Shown: piece by piece, positions 1 to 7,300 of the stretch
Layout: every line of letters starts with the position of its first letter
How positions within the stretch are numbered: position 1 is the first letter of the stretch
DNA from: Candidatus Rokuibacteriota bacterium
GTDB lineage: Bacteria; Methylomirabilota; Methylomirabilia; Rokubacteriales; JACPHL01
Assembly: GCA_016188625.1 (NCBI GenBank)
Contig: JACPHL010000269.1
Location: forward strand, 1-7,300
Length of the DNA stretch: 7,300 bases
Reading direction: 5' to 3'
Notes under the pieces: generated by a model
What the model was told of the DNA's origin: nothing
What the model saw: the letters and a program-made list of their open reading frames with translations, nothing else
Database searches by the model: none
Position numbers and translations under genes: made by a program

Positions 1-896
1 GCGGCTACACGCGCTGGGTGGAGGAGACGGACCCGACTGTCGTCGTCCGGGTCCTGAATGCCTACCTGGCGCGCATGACGGAGATCATCATTGAGTACGA
101 GGGCAGCATCAACGAGTTCATCGGAGACGCGATCTTCGCCATCTTCGGCGCGCCCCTCGCCGCTCCTGACCACGCCGAGCGCGCCGCCGCCTGCGCGATC
201 GCCATGCAGCGGGCGATGGAGGAGGTCAACCGGCTCCACCTCCCCGGCGGGCTGGCGCGGCTCGAGATGGGGATCGGACTCAACACCGGCGAGGCCGTGG
301 TGGGGAACATCGGCTCCGAGAAGCGGGCCAAGTACGGTGTCGTGGGCAGCGCCGTCAACCTGGCGGCCCGCGTGCAGGCCTGCACGATCGGCGGCCAGGT
401 CCTCCTGAGCCCGCACACCTACGAGCGCATCCGCGGGATCGCCGAGGTCGGCCCGCCCATCCCCATCGAGGTCAAAGGGATCCGGGAGCCCCTGCTCCTC
501 TACGAGCTCCAGGCGGTGGCCGGGCCCTGGGGCCAGCGCCTCCCGGAGGCGGCCGCCGACGCTGGCCCCGAGGTGCCCGTCGCCATGCCGCTTTCCTGCT
601 GGGTGGTCGAAGGCACGACCGTCCGGCCCGAGCGGCTCCGCGGCGAGGTGCTCCGGCTCGGCCCGCGCCGGCTCGAGGCCCGGCTCGAGCACCCGCTGGC
701 GCCGCTGACGAACCTCCGGCTCCGCCTCCGCTACGTGGTCCTCGCGCAGGACTCGGGCGACCTCTACGGGAAGGTGCTGGCCACCCGGGAGGAGGGCGGG
801 ACCTGGGTCGCCCAGATCGGGCTGACTTCCGTGGATGCCGCCGACCAGCGGGTCCTGGAGAGCCTCCTGCGGGGAGCCGGGGCGAGGCAGGCGTGA
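1..896 (+). CDS. Class III nucleotide cyclase with C-terminal PilZ-like domain (5' end outside window)
   Basis: The frame is open from base 3 (GYTRW, the tail of the usual DIRGxT motif), so the gene starts upstream; the GTG at 18 is internal. Counting from that GTG, residues 1-165 are a class III adenylate/guanylate cyclase catalytic domain that would make a cyclic nucleotide from NTP. The second metal Asp is D37 (FIGDAIFAIFG), and the transition-state residues are N114 and R118 (VNLAARVQ). The first metal Asp lies off the window. The usual adenine-selecting Lys is E33 (INEFIGD), and its Asp/Thr partner position reads Gly. Residues ~188-285 resemble a PilZ-type beta-barrel (GEVLRLGPRRLEARLEHPL, then an aromatic/basic strand), which suggests a link to c-di-GMP, but I see no clear RxxxR motif. 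The gene ends convergently with the epimerase debris. Cyclase call firm; PilZ call moderate. Confidence 0.88.
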   Translation, partial: GYTRWVEETDPTVVVRVLNAYLARMTEIIIEYEGSINEFIGDAIFAIFGAPLAAPDHAERAAACAIAMQRAMEEVNRLHLPGGLARLEMGIGLNTGEAVVGNIGSEKRAKYGVVGSAVNLAARVQACTIGGQVLLSPHTYERIRGIAEVGPPIPIEVKGIREPLLLYELQAVAGPWGQRLPEAAADAGPEVPVAMPLSCWVVEGTTVRPERLRGEVLRLGPRRLEARLEHPLAPLTNLRLRLRYVVLAQDSGDLYGKVLATREEGGTWVAQIGLTSVDAADQRVLESLLRGAGARQA

Positions 897-1621: not shown

Positions 1622-3223
1622 TCAGGCTGAGACCTTCGTGTACACTCCCGGCGGCACCAGGCGGAAGACCCGCACCGGCTCCGAGACGTTCTTGAGCCGG
1701 TGCTCACCGGTATCTTCCAGCACGTAGTGCCCCTTGATCCGCTCCGCCGTCTCCGGCCCCACCATGATGTTCCCTCCGGTGGCCAGTGCGGCGATGCGCG
1801 CGGCCACATTGGTGGTCGGCCCTGACGCGGTGAACGTCCATCGACCCCCACCCGCTCCGCCGATCTTGGTGGCGCCGACGAACGCCGGGCCGCTGTTGAT
1901 CCCCACGTGGATCGCCACCGGCGGGTACACCCCGTCGAACTCGAGGTTGAGCTGGGCGAGCCGGGCCTGGATCTGGAAGGCGGCGCCCGCGGCGTTCAGC
2001 GTGTGGCGCGTGGGGTTCCCCTCGCTCTGGAAGATCACCATGAGGCCGTCGCCGGCGGTCTCGTTGACGTCGCCGTGGTTGGCCCGGATGATCTCCAGGA
2101 AGCTCGAGAAGTAGTCCTGGATCAGCCGGTTGAGGCGCTGGGGGGGGAGCTGCTCCGAGAGCTTGGTGTAGCCCTCCACGTCGAGGAAGAGGACCGAGAC
2201 GTCCGCTTCGCGCTTCTCCAGCTCCCGCGCGTCCGGGTTTGTCTCGAGCAGGCGCGAGACGGACTCGGGGACGAACTTGGATAGCTCGCCCTTGACCTGC
2301 TCGAGCAACTCCACCTTCTGCATGGACTCCTTGAGGCTCTGGAGCGCGTCCGCCAGCTCCACGTTGCGCGCTTCCAGGTCGTCGTGCGCGCTCTTCAGGC
2401 GCTCCGCCATGTCGTTAATGGCCTGGCCGAGCTGGCCGATCTCATCCCGGCTCTCGAGGGCGACCCGCGCCCCGAAGTCCCCCTCGCCGATCCGGCGCGC
2501 GGCCGCCGCCACCCGGGTGATGGGCTGGAGCACCACCCGTCCCATAAAGAGCACGAGGCTGGCGGCCACGCCCAGGATCGTCAGCATAGCGACGACGATC
2601 TGGCGGTTCCGCGCCGCGCGCAGCTCGGCGTCCAGCTTCTCGAGCCCGAGGCTCACCCGCATGACGCCGCGGACCTTGTGGTCCTCGCCGTGGCAGCCCT
2701 GGCACGCCTCGAGGTTCCGCAGGGGGCGAAAGAGGGTCAACACGCGGGCGTCGTTCACCGTCTCGTGGATCTCCTGGGCCTCCAGGGTCTCGACCGCGCG
2801 GGTGAACAGCGGATGGCTGATCCGCTCCCCGGGCTCCCGCCGCATCTTCGAGATGCTCGCGATGAGGTCCGCGTCGAGGCCAGCGATGCGGTTCACCTCG
2901 TTCACCGTCTCCAGGTCGGCGAACGCCTCCACACCGTTCCGACGGAAGACATCGAGCCGACGCACATCCGTGAGCTCAGCCTTCAGGTTCTGCACGAGCT
3001 GGCGGATGATGTCCGGCCGCCCTTCCAGCATCCCGTTCTCGATGCTCGTGAGGATGGAGGCGGAGAGGAGGCGCGCGGTCTCCCGGTTCGTGGCCACCAG
3101 CACCTCTGCCTCCCGCCGGATGTTCAGGATCAGGAGGACGCCGAACCCCACGATGAGCATGAGGAGGATCAGCGTGAGGACCTTAGCGCGAAGACGGGTC
3201 CGGAACAGATCGGGGAAGGGCAT
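1622..3223 (-). CDS. Membrane class III cyclase with periplasmic CXXCH haem-binding sensor and HAMP domain
   Basis: ATG 3223 is chosen because it overlaps the upstream stop as TGATG, implying translational coupling; a TTG one codon earlier is also possible. Numbering from the ATG (533 aa): membrane helix ~14-33; extracytoplasmic sensor ~35-207 carrying CQGCH (C174, C177, H178), a c-type haem attachment motif; second helix ~208-227; HAMP ~228-280 (LQPITRVAAAARRIGEGD); coiled coil ~280-320; cyclase domain ~338-525. Catalytic features: metal Asps D348 (FLDVEGYT) and D392 (AGDGLMVIF), N472 and R476. The adenine-selecting Lys is replaced by E388 and its partner is T465, so substrate is uncertain. 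The layout suggests a redox or gas sensor driving cyclic nucleotide synthesis, which is inference. The gene ends exactly where epimerase debris begins. Confidence 0.92.
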   Translation of the reverse strand: MPFPDLFRTRLRAKVLTLILLMLIVGFGVLLILNIRREAEVLVATNRETARLLSASILTSIENGMLEGRPDIIRQLVQNLKAELTDVRRLDVFRRNGVEAFADLETVNEVNRIAGLDADLIASISKMRREPGERISHPLFTRAVETLEAQEIHETVNDARVLTLFRPLRNLEACQGCHGEDHKVRGVMRVSLGLEKLDAELRAARNRQIVVAMLTILGVAASLVLFMGRVVLQPITRVAAAARRIGEGDFGARVALESRDEIGQLGQAINDMAERLKSAHDDLEARNVELADALQSLKESMQKVELLEQVKGELSKFVPESVSRLLETNPDARELEKREADVSVLFLDVEGYTKLSEQLPPQRLNRLIQDYFSSFLEIIRANHGDVNETAGDGLMVIFQSEGNPTRHTLNAAGAAFQIQARLAQLNLEFDGVYPPVAIHVGINSGPAFVGATKIGGAGGGRWTFTASGPTTNVAARIAALATGGNIMVGPETAERIKGHYVLEDTGEHRLKNVSEPVRVFRLVPPGVYTKVSA

Positions 3224-3555
3224 CAAAAACCGAGCGACCGGGCACCCTCCCGGAATCGCTCCACGTTCCGGAGCTTGATCTGCTCGTATCCGCGGATGAG
3301 GTCGGGGAGGCCGGCCAGGGTGACCGCGTGGTCGTACGTCTCCCGGTTGAGGTAGGCCATGAGCTTGAAGAGATAGCGCGCCACCGCCTCGCTGAACCGC
3401 GTCTCGCCGACACCCGCGGCGCGCTCGGCCGCAGCCACGCGCTTCACGAACTCCGCGTACTCCCGCGCATAGGCGGCGTTCTGGTACTCGATCCGCTCGG
3501 GCACGCGGATCTCCAGGAGCCGCCGCAGCTCGCCCGTGGAATCTAGGGAGTCCAA
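3223..3555 (-). CDS. C-terminal fragment of an indolepyruvate oxidoreductase-type protein
   Basis: The 110-residue frame reads EYAEFVKRVAAAE, then VARYLFKLMAYLNRET, then LPDLIRGYEQIKLRNVERF. These match the tail of long indolepyruvate (2-oxoacid):acceptor oxidoreductase beta-type proteins and the related DUF6537 tail (KLMAYKDEYE and RGYGHVKE motifs). Intact members are several hundred residues, and the catalytic region that delivers electrons to an acceptor is absent. The only usable start, TTG 3555, and the first ~7 residues lie in the flanking repeat, so the 5' part has been lost at the repeat edge. The TGA overlaps the ATG of the haem-cyclase by one base, so the two genes once formed an operon and may still be co-translated. 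It is probably non-functional as an enzyme. Family assignment is from motif memory. Confidence 0.66.
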   Translation of the reverse strand: MDSLDSTGELRRLLEIRVPERIEYQNAAYAREYAEFVKRVAAAERAAGVGETRFSEAVARYLFKLMAYLNRETYDHAVTLAGLPDLIRGYEQIKLRNVERFREGARSLGF

Positions 3556-3670
3556 AGCGCCCCTTTCATCGGCCCCGCCTGACGCACCCGAGCCCCCGGG
3601 CGCCTTCCCCCGGGGGCAGGCCCCGGGTGAGCGGAGCGTAGCACACCCCGAGCGGGGCGCGCAAGGGGCC
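3543..3670 (+). repeat. Dispersed hairpin repeat, copy A (~128 bp, short form)
   Basis: Begins CTAGGGAGTCCAAAGCG and runs to AAGGGGCC, after which it diverges from the other two copies. It lacks the last ~45 bases found in copies B and C. It contains a perfect 9-bp hairpin (arms 3592-3600 and 3609-3617, 8-base loop) and a second small one (CCCC at 3646-3649, GGGG at 3654-3657, GAGC loop). Its left edge abuts the oxidoreductase stub; its right edge is 28 bases from the channel stop. On the minus strand it supplies the TTG start used by the stub and an in-repeat ATGAAAG. Confidence 0.9.
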
Positions 3671-3697
3671 TGGGCTCAACCCGGAGACGCTGTCCCC

Positions 3698-4963
3698 CTA
3701 CGGTGTCCCGCCGGCTCCCGGGTGGAGCCTGCTTTCGGCAACCGCGCGGATGCTGGCATCGAGTTCGGGGTATTGCTGCATCAACCGGCGGAAGTCGCCG
3801 ATATCGAGCGCCAGCAGCTGGCATTCTGTAACTGCGATCACTGTCGCTGTGCGTGTGATGTCCTTCACTAGACCGATCTCGCCAAAGTACTGGCCGGCAC
3901 GCAGACGCACCGGTTGCGGCGTCAGCTCGACCTCAACCTCGCCCGCTAGGATGAAGTACATGGCGTCGGCAGCGTCGCCGCGATGGACGATGAGGTAACG
4001 CGCCGGCACCCACTGCGGCTTCAACAGGCGTGCGACCTGGGCGATCTGCGACGCGTCGAGCCCGGCGAACAACGGTACCCTGGCGACGGCCTGCCAGGTG
4101 ACGACGAAGTCACGCTTGCGGATCTCGGCGGCGAATCCGGTGGCGAGGATGCCGGCCGGAACCGCGAACATGGCGATACCGAGCAGCATGACGACCCCAC
4201 CGAAGAGACGGCCGAGCGGCGTCACCGGCAGCATATCGCCATAGCCGACGGTGGCGATGGTGACGATGCCCCACCATAGCGCGCGCGGGATCGAGCTGAA
4301 CACATGCGGCTGCGCCGTTCGCTCGAGCAGGTACATGACGCCCGACGCGAGGAAGAGCAGGACAAGCATCACGACGAGCGCCGCCGCGAGCGAGCGCAGC
4401 TCGTTTCGTATCACGGTGGCGACCAGCGACAGTCCCGGCGCGTAGCGCGCCAGTTTGAGCAACACGAGCAGACCGATCACGTGCTCGAGCGCGTTGCCCA
4501 GCGGCTGCACGAAGTGAAGGAGGCGCGGCAAGATCGCCAGGAGATCGATGACGCCGAGGAACGAGACCGCATAGGCCGCGCGCGCCGCCCAGGGATGACC
4601 AACCGCCGTCGGATCGCTGTCGGGCGCGATCCAGTGGCGGAGCGCATACTCGGCGGTGAAGGCGACGAGCGTCGCGGCGACGAGCGCCTCGACCAACCGG
4701 CGTATCGCCGGCGTCGCGTCGGGCAGCGTGCCGAGCATCCCCGCTGCAACCGCGACCGCGATGGTGAGCAAGAGGACGGTCGTGGCGGCAATGCGCGCCA
4801 GCGTCGCCGGCTCGCCCTCCGCGAGAAGGCCGACGACGTGTGACCGCCAACCCCGCGAACCTAGGAAGTCCAAAGCGCCTCTTTCATCGGCCCCGCCTGA
4901 CGCACCCGAGCCCCTGGGCGCCTTCCCCATGAGGGCAGGCCCCGGGTGACCGGAGCGTAGCAC
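3698..4963 (-). CDS. Cyclic nucleotide-gated potassium channel (six-helix, CNBD)
   Basis: 421-codon frame from GTG 4963. Residues 1-~34 are translated repeat sequence; channel homology starts about SRGWRSHVVGLL (~36), and no other start exists before the first helix except TTG 4876, also in the repeat. Helices: S1 ~59-79, S2 ~92-109, S3 ~129-147, S4 ~160-185 (few basic residues, so probably little voltage sensing), S5 ~192-213, S6 ~251-275. The pore has the K+ filter TVGYGD at 238-243. A cyclic-nucleotide-binding domain covers ~297-405, with the phosphate-binding cassette FGEIGLVKDITRTATV (E362, R371, T372) intact. This is a MloK1/SthK-like design in which cAMP or cGMP would open a K+ path in the inner membrane. 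Base use looks less GC-extreme than its neighbours, hinting at separate origin. It is flanked by repeats A and B. Confidence 0.93.
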   Translation of the reverse strand: MLRSGHPGPALMGKAPRGSGASGGADERGALDFLGSRGWRSHVVGLLAEGEPATLARIAATTVLLLTIAVAVAAGMLGTLPDATPAIRRLVEALVAATLVAFTAEYALRHWIAPDSDPTAVGHPWAARAAYAVSFLGVIDLLAILPRLLHFVQPLGNALEHVIGLLVLLKLARYAPGLSLVATVIRNELRSLAAALVVMLVLLFLASGVMYLLERTAQPHVFSSIPRALWWGIVTIATVGYGDMLPVTPLGRLFGGVVMLLGIAMFAVPAGILATGFAAEIRKRDFVVTWQAVARVPLFAGLDASQIAQVARLLKPQWVPARYLIVHRGDAADAMYFILAGEVEVELTPQPVRLRAGQYFGEIGLVKDITRTATVIAVTECQLLALDIGDFRRLMQQYPELDASIRAVAESRLHPGAGGTP

Positions 4964-5029
4964 CTCCCGAGCGGGGCGCGCAAGGTGGCCGGTGGCAGGG
5001 CGGCCGGCAGAGTGGACAGGCCGGCCAGG
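4861..5029 (+). repeat. Dispersed hairpin repeat, copy B (~169 bp)
   Basis: Begins CTAGGAAGTCCAAAGCG and ends near GGCCGGCCAGG. It is the same element as copies A and C, with scattered substitutions. In the main hairpin (4910-4936) the inner stem has TGGG paired with CCCA where A and C have CGGG with CCCG, a compensatory change. On the minus strand its frame runs open into the channel gene and supplies GTG 4963 or TTG 4876 as start. Relative to copy C it lacks about 10 bases near the right end. Confidence 0.9.
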
Positions 5030-5302: not shown

Positions 5303-6355
5303 CTAGCCCCGCTGTTCCGATGTCAGCGCGCCGGCCGTGGCGGCCGGCTCGCGCGGGACGACGTAGGTGGGGACGGTCATCCCGTCCAGGCCCGGAACCT
5401 CGAAGGCCGGGTCGAGCAGCTGAAACTGCACGGCGATCTCCGGCGCTTCGGCCCGGAGCACCTCGACGACCTCGCCGCTGGCGATGATCCCGCCGGGCGA
5501 GACCTGTTTGAGCATCCTGGCGCCTACGCTCACGCTGGGACCGACGAGCGCGATGGCCTGGCGCATCGTCGACCCGATCACGCCCACGACCACGTCGCCC
5601 ACCGTGAGGCTCACACGCGCCTGGACCGGGTTCTCGTCCGCGCACGCCCCGCACGCGAGCGACGCCTGGATGGCGAGCGCCGCCTGGGCCGCCTCGGCGG
5701 GGGACTCGAAGTAGAGCAGCGCGCCGTCGCCCTCGAAGTCCTTCACGTCACCGCAGTAGGCCAGGGCCACCTCCGTGACGAGCTGCATGAAGCGCTGGAC
5801 CACCCCGAGCACCCGCTCGGGCGGGTGATGGGCCAGGAGGCGCGTCGAGCCGGCGATGTCCACGAAGAGCGTCGTCAGGCGACGGCGCGCCGGCAGGCCG
5901 CCGTCGAGCAGGTAGCGGGCGGCGAGGCTCGGCAGAAAAGGTGCCGGCTCTTCCGCCACGGCGGGGGCTGCAGCGCCGGCGCACTCAACGGTCCCGCGCG
6001 CCGCCCCTCGGAGCGAGGCCACCGGAAGGCCGGTGGCCCGCCACCCCGCGATGCCCCCCTCCAGGATCGAGACGCGCTCGAAGCCCTGACCCGCGAGCCA
6101 CCGTGCCACCCGGGCACTGGTCGCCTCGCCGGGTCAGGAGCAGTAGACGACGAGGTGCGTGTCCGCCGGAAGATCCCGGGCGCGCCGGGGAACTTCCTCG
6201 ATCGGCACCCAGAGGGCCCCCGGGACGCGGGCCGGGTCGGCGCTCCAGGCCTCCCGCCGCCGCACGTCCAGGACGGCAATTCGCTCTCCGCGGCGCAGGC
6301 TGGCGTCCAGCTCGCTGGCCGTGATGCGGTTCACGGCTTTTTGGGATTCGTGCAT
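5303..6355 (-). CDS. Rhodanese-class III cyclase fusion with in-frame TGA (possible selenoprotein)
   Basis: ATG 6355 follows a GGAG five bases upstream. Residues 1-~110 are a rhodanese domain (IAVLDVRRREAW; ADTHLVVYCS; LEGGIAGW), which would bind persulfide or other sulfur on C72. Codon 74 is TGA (6134-6136) where relatives have Cys in a VVYCSCPxEATSA motif; the same frame continues with PGEATSARVARWLAGQGF, so a read-through product is 350 aa. A Pro/Ala linker leads to a cyclase domain (~155-300): metal Asps D166 (FVDIAGS) and D210 (FEGDGALLYF), R280 present, but the transition-state Asn is S276 (VGPSVSVGARM). TGA could encode selenocysteine, be a nonsense mutation, or be a base error for TGC. 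A downstream GTG (6109) could start the cyclase half alone. The gene lies between repeats B and C and is divergent from the QueD stub. Confidence 0.8.
6094..6136 (-). promoter_or_regulatory. Candidate bacterial SECIS element after the in-frame TGA
   Basis: Reading the mRNA from UGA (6136-6134), a hairpin follows. The lower stem is CGAG (6128-6125) with CUCG (6097-6094), the middle CCA (6120-6118) with UGG (6100-6098), and the upper GUGCC (6117-6113) with GGCAC (6107-6103). The apical loop is CGGGU (6112-6108). The loop begins 22 bases after the UGA and has G as its second base, which fits the general rules for bacterial SECIS (loop of a few bases, early G, roughly 16-37 bases from UGA). GC-rich DNA forms hairpins easily, so this is suggestive only. 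Confidence 0.4.
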
Positions 6356-6493: not shown

Positions 6494-6577
6494 ATGCGCC
6501 TCACGAGCGAGTTCACCTTCGACGCGGCCCGCCGGATCCTGGGAGTCCAAAGCGTCTCTTTCATCGGCTCCGCCTGA
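6494..6577 (+). pseudogene. queD: N-terminal stub of QueD / 6-pyruvoyl-tetrahydropterin synthase-like gene
   Basis: ATG 6494 begins MRLTSEFTFDAARRILG, matching the start of QueD-family proteins (EFTFDAAHxL), which convert dihydroneopterin triphosphate to carboxytetrahydropterin in queuosine synthesis. After ~17 residues the frame enters repeat C and reads VQSVSFIGSA before TGA 6575. The zinc-binding His expected after FDAA is Arg here, a one-base change. Everything else, including the LHGHNY region, is absent. The identity rests on 12-15 residues plus the promoter, so it is moderate. The stub appears cut by the repeat or by a rearrangement at its edge. Confidence 0.55.
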
Positions 6578-6713
6578 CGCACCCGAGCCCCCGGGCGCCG
6601 TTCCCGGGGGCAGGCCCCGGGTGACCGGAGCGTAGCACGCCCTGACCGGGGTGCGCCAGGGGCCGGTGGCAGGGGGGCCGGCAGAGTGGACGGGCCGGGA
6701 TAGGCCGGCCAGG
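6538..6713 (+). repeat. Dispersed hairpin repeat, copy C (~176 bp, longest)
   Basis: Begins near CTGGGAGTCCAAAGCG inside the QueD stub and ends near GGCCGGCCAGG. The perfect 9-bp hairpin is at 6587-6595 and 6603-6611 with a 7-base loop. The second hairpin region (around 6628-6650) differs in sequence from copies A and B but can still pair. It has the same orientation as the other two. Confidence 0.9.
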
Positions 6714-6790: not shown

Positions 6791-6964
6791 GTGCAGCGAG
6801 GGAGTTCTGAGGAAGTACGTGTGGGGCATGTCTTGAGCTTGCATCGGAAGATGGACCGACGCCGTTGTGGCGAGGCTAAGATGGTGGAGCTGAGCGGAAC
6901 GCCCTCCCGGCGGATGACAGGCCGGGAGGGCGGTGTTATGCTTGAGCGGCGAGGATGGGTATGA
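6791..6964 (+). CDS. Possible small ORF (57 aa) ahead of the transporter; unrecognised
   Basis: GTG 6791 is preceded by GAGGGG six bases upstream, and the frame runs to TGA 6962-6964, which overlaps the transporter ATG as ATGA. The product is basic and hydrophilic (SLHRKMDRRRCGEAKMVEL in the middle) with no family I know. Codon third positions are not GC-biased as in real genes nearby, and the frame runs through a strong inverted repeat. It may be a leader peptide, debris of a gene, or nothing. The rest of 6714-6899 shows no other feature I can support. Confidence 0.2.
   Translation: MQRGSSEEVRVGHVLSLHRKMDRRRCGEAKMVELSGTPSRRMTGREGGVMLERRGWV
6900..6932. other. Perfect 12-bp inverted repeat upstream of the YeeE/YedE gene
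   Basis: CGCCCTCCCGGC (6900-6911) and GCCGGGAGGGCG (6921-6932) form a perfect stem with a 9-base loop, ending 28 bases before ATG 6961. No T-run follows. It could be an attenuator or mRNA structure controlling the transporter, a protein-binding operator, or a terminator-like element. Confidence 0.6.
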
Positions 6965-7300
6965 ATCGGACAGGGACGCTGACCGTGCCGACGCCGGTGG
7001 GCGTCACCGCCGAGCGCGGCCCCCGGCGGGTTCAGCCGCGGGTGGTGGGGGCGGCGGGGGTACTGCTCCTGGGCCTCTTCGCCTGGCTCGCCGCCCAGTA
7101 CGGGCTGCGCCACGGGGCGCTCTTCCTGGTGGGCGGGGCGCTCGGCCTGGTGCTCTACCAGTCCTTCTTCGGCTTCACGACGGCGTTCCGTCTCTTCGTC
7201 ACGGTGGGGGACGGCCGGGGGATCCGGGCCCAGATGCTGATGTTCGCCCTCGCGACGGCCATCTTCGCCCCCATGCTCGCCTCCGGGCAGGTCCTGGGCA
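6961..7300 (+). CDS. YeeE/YedE family membrane transporter (3' end outside window)
   Basis: Start at ATG 6961 is preferred because GAGG lies six bases upstream; ATG 6955 in the same frame would leave no spacing. The 113 visible residues have a ~27-residue soluble N-terminus, then membrane helices ~28-47, ~52-66 and ~90-106. Between them is FGFTTAFR (70-77), preceded by GALFLVGGALGLVLYQ and followed by RAQMLMFALAT. This pattern is typical of the YeeE/YedE family, whose characterised members import thiosulfate; some relatives occur in selenium-metabolism clusters. Intact proteins have about nine or more helices, so most of the gene lies beyond the window. It lies just right of repeat C and is not obviously part of the cyclase modules. 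Confidence 0.87.
   Translation, partial: MNRTGTLTVPTPVGVTAERGPRRVQPRVVGAAGVLLLGLFAWLAAQYGLRHGALFLVGGALGLVLYQSFFGFTTAFRLFVTVGDGRGIRAQMLMFALATAIFAPMLASGQVLG

Follow-up and report, generated by a model that had tools for sequence, protein, structure and literature searches.

A predicted selenocysteine-containing rhodanese fused to a class III cyclase-like domain in a Candidatus Rokuibacteriota bacterium

An in-frame TGA codon beside the active-site cysteine of a rhodanese domain may mark either a damaged gene or a selenocysteine (Sec) residue, and where the rhodanese is joined to a cyclase-like domain the further question arises of what such a protein would do. Both questions are raised by a locus in the window, the whole 7,300-nucleotide stretch of DNA analysed here, which comes from a 2.6 Mb genome (G000; 344 contigs, 84% complete, 2% contamination) that is an incomplete assembly. 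A sequence-only reading had proposed a candidate selenoprotein in which the TGA replaces a residue next to the catalytic cysteine within an otherwise open frame. The overall explanation preferred here, with a probability of roughly 0.75, is a Sec-decoded rhodanese-cyclase fusion that would act as a sulfur, selenium or redox sensor carrying a nucleotide-signalling domain. The gene lies on the minus strand (a plus-strand reading of 5303-6355 was rejected), and its features are as follows.

5303 to 6355, minus strand: full coding region of the rhodanese-cyclase fusion, 350 residues with TGA read as Sec, stop codon TAG
6035 to 6322, minus strand: rhodanese domain, residues 12-107 (Pfam PF00581)
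6140 to 6142, minus strand: Cys72, at the site of the rhodanese loop that bears the persulfide in catalysis, placed by alignment to homologs
6134 to 6136, minus strand: in-frame TGA, codon 74, predicted Sec of a CxU motif, placed by homolog comparison
6103 to 6117, minus strand: bacterial SECIS (bSECIS)-like hairpin, stem GUGCC/GGCAC, loop CGGGU, the loop starting 21 nt past the TGA
5906 to 5938, minus strand: FLPxLA helix, conserved, residues 140-150, lying after the linker and ahead of the cyclase domain
5348 to 5890, minus strand: class III cyclase-like domain, residues 156-336 (Pfam PF00211 and AlphaFold model)

The reading frame runs from an ATG at 6355-6353 to a TAG at 5305-5303 and, when the TGA is taken as a residue, contains no further lesion, so that the unbroken frame first described on either side of the TGA is borne out. 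The rhodanese domain belongs to PF00581 (E 2.3e-13; 50.9 bits, cut-off 22.2), and Guanylate_cyc (PF00211) is matched at residues 160-310 with an E of 9.1e-10, above the gathering score. Cys72 aligns with the conserved cysteine of homologous rhodaneses, and we take it, as in rhodaneses generally, to be the persulfide-bearing catalytic residue. The TGA follows two codons later within VVYC-S-U-PGEATSARVA, beside the active-site cysteine of the rhodanese loop as had been claimed. The fusion protein is probably cytoplasmic.

Whether this codon is a lesion can be judged from its relatives. The read-through protein was used to search genomes of the same order and the same phylum as well as GTDB contigs, and the query carried Cys at position 74, so that it was not biased toward TGA. 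Three further rhodanese-cyclase fusions were recovered, all with TGA at codon 74: L057 from a Candidatus Methylomirabilota metagenome-assembled genome (G074; 73% identity, full length), L081 (G073, contig C52; 65% identity), which stops at the contig end just past the linker, and L058 from a Candidatus Tectomicrobia genome (G095; 46% identity, full length). By phylum, fusions were found only in the source genome, G074 and G073 among 95 genomes, and in G095 among 5; a viral-contig scan and a plasmid protein search yielded no others. Across the rhodanese homologs codon 74 is TGA in 35 distinct DNA sequences and TAA or TAG in none, and about 30 homologous rhodaneses beyond the cyclase fusions, many of them joined to DedA, share the TGA. 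TGC is found in two Burkholderiaceae homologs (L115 and L116, from Burkholderia and Cupriavidus), Ser stands there in a few homologs of the same phylum, and rhodaneses farther removed show other residues or a gap of two residues at this site.

Two observations on these relatives may be recorded separately. The Ser-for-Sec rhodaneses of the same phylum (L107-L110 and L114; YCDSPGEATSAR, YCTSPEEATSAR) mostly lack the hairpin and form a natural Sec/Ser series. The same-order relative L033, a DedA-rhodanese membrane protein whose sequence was examined in full, carries in frame after its DedA-rhodanese part a second rhodanese-like domain (L033 1501-2200; G011:C266) with its own TGA (IIFYCA-TGA-PAEATAAGQAA) and likewise a SECIS-like hairpin, and is possibly a double selenoprotein of the form DedA-Rhd(U)-Rhd(U).

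Selection on the two sides of the TGA was compared between the window gene and L057 by the Nei-Gojobori method with Jukes-Cantor correction. The dN/dS ratio is about 0.25 upstream of the TGA, 0.32 in the remainder of the rhodanese, 0.20 in the cyclase domain and 0.27 over everything downstream; these similar values point to protein-level selection that is alike before and after the codon. They bear on the simplest alternative, namely that a nonsense mutation or an assembly error turned a TGC Cys codon into TGA and left a broken pseudogene. Such a change needs a single base, and the two proteobacterial homologs do have TGC, but the identical TGA recurs in some 30 other homologs and in fusions from other genomes that are as little as 46% identical, the gene has no other lesion, its downstream part is under purifying selection, and the genome contains the machinery for Sec. 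The independent TGA homologs refute the pseudogene explanation for practical purposes, and its probability is negligible. The expectation that the TGA did not arise by chance is borne out by the 35 distinct homologous sequences that share it, close relatives among them, and scattered stops, which would have spoken for decay, were absent from the relatives' genes.

Decoding of UGA as Sec depends on dedicated factors, and the sequence-only reading had named selA, selB, tRNA-Sec and selD as the genes to look for; all four were found in the source genome. A tRNA-Sec with anticodon TCA lies at C273:1401-1498 (75.7 bits, with ARAGORN in agreement) and shares one contig with selA (600 bits) and selB (380.7 bits). 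The selD gene scores above its cut-off and itself contains a TGA, in frame, where Sec is classically found (LSHGAG-TGA-ACKLG). The G+C content of the contigs with the Sec machinery (0.71-0.75) is similar to that of the window (0.705), and selA was found in every genome that carries one of the other fusions.

A SECIS-like hairpin is also present directly downstream of the TGA, with the pattern AG[C/U]GCC-CGGGU-GGC[G/A]C and a G at loop position 2. The published rule for bSECIS elements places the loop 16-37 nt past the UGA (PMC13188914); the criteria applied here further called for a G within the first two positions of the loop, a stem of at least 4 bp and a minimum free energy (MFE) of -7.5 or lower. 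The window hairpin falls within these limits at 21 nt, with a 5 bp stem and G at loop position 2, and the MFE for the 48 nt following the TGA is -27.3. In an alignment of 22 sequences 97% of the cells are paired, three pairs have changed on both sides (C-G/U-A and G-C/C-G replacements), and no slid register performs equally well. The 5 bp core is found in 34 of 35 TGA homologs versus 1 of 12 non-TGA homologs. All 35 TGA homologs have G at loop position 2 and GCC as codon 81; codon 80 is AGU in five of them and codon 84 is GCA in five, which, according to the pair counts, reflects U-A replacing C-G. When synonymous codons were shuffled gene by gene, the native fold was no stronger than the shuffled ones and no significance was obtained, owing to the very high G+C content of these genes; it is thus the cross-homolog comparison that carries the whole argument for the hairpin. 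A scan of the window with Rfam gave no match, without it being presumed that Rfam holds a bSECIS family of this type.

The combination of TGA conservation, Sec machinery, hairpin and selection makes it nearly certain, at the level of comparative sequence evidence, that UGA at codon 74 would be decoded as Sec. There is one other way to keep the gene functional, in which the UGA specifies a different amino acid or translation re-initiates past it, so that rhodanese and cyclase are made as two products. GTG codons downstream of the TGA make an internal start formally possible; however, the rhodanese fold is completed by residues 75-112, on which the constraint resembles that on its first half, a tRNA-Sec (UCA) is present, the hairpin is conserved together with the TGA, and codon 74 is TGA and never TAA or TAG. 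This alternative is therefore very improbable, and the candidate selenoprotein first suggested for the locus is well supported by its TGA-bearing relatives, the Sec machinery, the hairpin conserved across TGA homologs and the lack of scattered stops.

What the selenoprotein does is a matter of its second domain and of how the two are connected. The AlphaFold model of the fusion protein has a mean pLDDT of 87, with both domains good and low confidence in linker residues 120-138, and its residues 155-336 match the class III cyclases Ma1120 and Rv1900c at Z 23.6. In class III cyclases an Asp pair binds metal, a Lys binds adenine, and an Asn and an Arg act on the transition state. The metal-binding pair (D166 and D210) is invariant and the Arg (R280) is kept. 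D206 stands where CyaC has its adenine-binding Lys, and the transition-state Asn is replaced by S276 in the window protein, by Ser in L057 and by Pro in L058. The loss of Lys and Asn makes classical cyclase activity doubtful, and catalysis by the domain may be weak, altered or absent, as judged from these residues. The original label of a nucleotide cyclase is accordingly upheld by the fold and weakened by the absence of some catalytic residues. A separate cyclase, L080 1501-2076 (G024:C118), is 60% identical to the fused domain, is free of rhodanese and retains the catalytic Asn.

The three full-length fusions (the window protein, L057 and L058) agree in the order of their domains and have the FLP helix and the core of the cyclase in conserved form, and AYCGDVKDFEGDGALLYFES is identical across them. 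Within the helix F140, L141, P142, L144 and A145 are invariant in the same three proteins and likewise in L081; the helix of the model spans residues 144-150, and the structural match to OaPAC reaches across the FLP region. The FLPxLA helix occupies what we take to be the site of the transducer helix in sensor-cyclases, and by this analogy it is probably a sensor-to-cyclase transducer.

The most likely mechanism can be outlined from these parts. Ribosomes would decode UGA-74 by means of tRNA-Sec, SelB and the downstream hairpin, and the predicted product would consist of a Cys-Ser-Sec (CxU) rhodanese followed by a flexible linker, the short FLP helix and the class III cyclase-like domain. Cys72 might then accept sulfane sulfur or become oxidised, and Sec74 could pair with it as a fast and reversible selenenyl-sulfide or perselenide. 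The resulting change in the loop would be relayed through the FLP helix to a cyclase-homology dimer, where it might alter the output of nucleotide or, should the domain be a poor catalyst, the binding of NTPs or of partners. That the sensor controls the second domain is put at somewhat less than an even chance. The narrower proposal, in which the Sec rhodanese directly senses redox state or sulfane sulfur/selenium and switches the fused class III cyclase domain, is tentative, and cAMP or cGMP as the output is unlikely.

The same protein could also be a selenoenzyme without a part in signalling, in which the CxU rhodanese is a sulfur/selenium transferase or a peroxide reducer and the cyclase-like module, now degenerate, serves dimerisation or nucleotide binding. 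This possibility is given a weight of about one third; it draws on the replaced Lys and Asn positions and on the CxU relative L033 of the same order, which is joined to a DedA membrane domain and not to a signalling domain. Against it stand the conservation of the cyclase domain, which is the most constrained region of the protein (dN 0.116 versus 0.2 in the rhodanese), the roughly 20 identical residues around Asp210 even in the homolog of 46% identity, and the retention of the metal Asp pair and the Arg. The Sec-decoded fusion with a sensing rhodanese and a nucleotide-signalling domain remains the preferred overall account.

The remainder of the window provides some context for this account, and contains the following elements.

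3 to 896, plus strand: an additional cyclase
1622 to 3226, minus strand: a HAMP-cyclase
3223 to 3555, minus strand: an ORF of 110 aa that matches part of DUF6537 only, with a repeat copy beside its start
3548 to 3673, 4867 to 4990 and 6543 to 6664, plus strand: three interspersed copies of a repeat about 126 nt long
3698 to 4963, minus strand: an ion channel with a cyclic-nucleotide-binding domain
6955 to 7300, plus strand: the start of a membrane protein gene, cut by the contig end, with a weak Sulf_transp (YeeE/YedE) match below cut-off

With two other cyclases and a cyclic-nucleotide-binding channel on the window contig, the source organism probably uses cyclic nucleotides, as far as gene content can indicate. 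No conserved gene neighbourhood was found among the window, L057 and L058; their neighbours differ, and the context is thus uninformative about the signal. The Sulf_transp-like gene is divergent from the selenoprotein gene, and YeeE/YedE is a known selenoprotein family (PMC13188914). The repeat has two more copies in the genome (C65:1545-1666 and C200:1-107), with 90-97% identity to the first copy, and the ORF at 3223-3555 may be a gene fragment.

The prokaryotic selenoproteins known so far are mainly metabolic or antioxidant redox enzymes. That the fusion of a Sec rhodanese with a nucleotide-signalling domain is conserved suggests a use of selenium chemistry in sensing and signalling. We know of no selenoprotein that governs a nucleotide second-messenger enzyme within the same chain, and a sensor-switched cyclase, if the proposal is true, would be the first. 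In the open-access literature searched, nothing relevant was found on a rhodanese-cyclase or cyclase-containing selenoprotein; the term 'cyclase' has no match in a survey of prokaryotic selenoprotein families up to 2026 (PMC13188914), and the deep-Sep paper mentions neither rhodanese nor cyclase. The fusion of a Sec rhodanese to a cyclase domain thus appears to be undescribed: the rhodanese chemistry is known, the partner domain is new and a signalling role is possibly so. The new signalling arrangement envisaged at the outset stands in that the fusion is conserved and absent from the literature searched, and is qualified by the missing catalytic residues. Because standard annotation splits such proteins in two at the TGA, the arrangement as a whole can easily be overlooked. 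The protein is a small and apparently soluble construct that lends itself to testing.

Rhodanese selenoproteins with a CxU motif have already been catalogued, as NF041203 or rhodanese-like form 3 (PMC13188914), which confirms the rhodanese-related selenoproteins of environmental bacteria mentioned in the sequence-only reading. NF041203 (rhodanese_LYCAU, 'rhodanese-related (seleno)protein') is the best NCBIfam match of the window protein (8.2e-24), and at 83.7 bits against a curated cut-off of 115 bits the protein is a relative of this family and not a member. Both have Sec two residues past the catalytic Cys, followed by P-x-E-A-T-S-A-R-V-A. Members above the cut-off from the same class as the source (L111 and L112) also use TGA, within LYCA-U-P or IYCA-U-P versus VVYC-S-U-P here; they are small, have a single domain and begin with a signal-peptide-like segment, whereas the window protein lacks such an N-terminus and has the C-terminal cyclase-like domain. 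The DedA-rhodanese membrane proteins of Methylomirabilota, Burkholderia and Cupriavidus belong to the rhodanese subfamily of the window protein and have CxU or CxC; they share TGA and hairpin with the window gene, with Cys versions in Burkholderiaceae, but in these proteins the rhodanese follows the membrane domain and a cyclase domain is absent.

Among class III cyclases (Ma1120, Rv1900c, CyaC, CyaB and the photoactivated OaPAC and bPAC) the fold is matched at Z 21-24, and the metal Asp pair, the Arg, the helix preceding the domain and the order of N-terminal sensor and C-terminal cyclase are held in common; the window protein differs in Asp206 for Lys, Ser or Pro for Asn, and a Sec rhodanese as the predicted sensor. 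Other fusion selenoproteins are known, such as a Prx-PP2C-type phosphatase in which a Sec domain is fused to a signalling phosphatase (PMC2398784) and the rhodanese/DsbD-like TsoB (NF045694; PMC13188914). Like the window protein they combine a Sec redox domain with another functional domain, and they differ from it in Sec motif and in partner domains.
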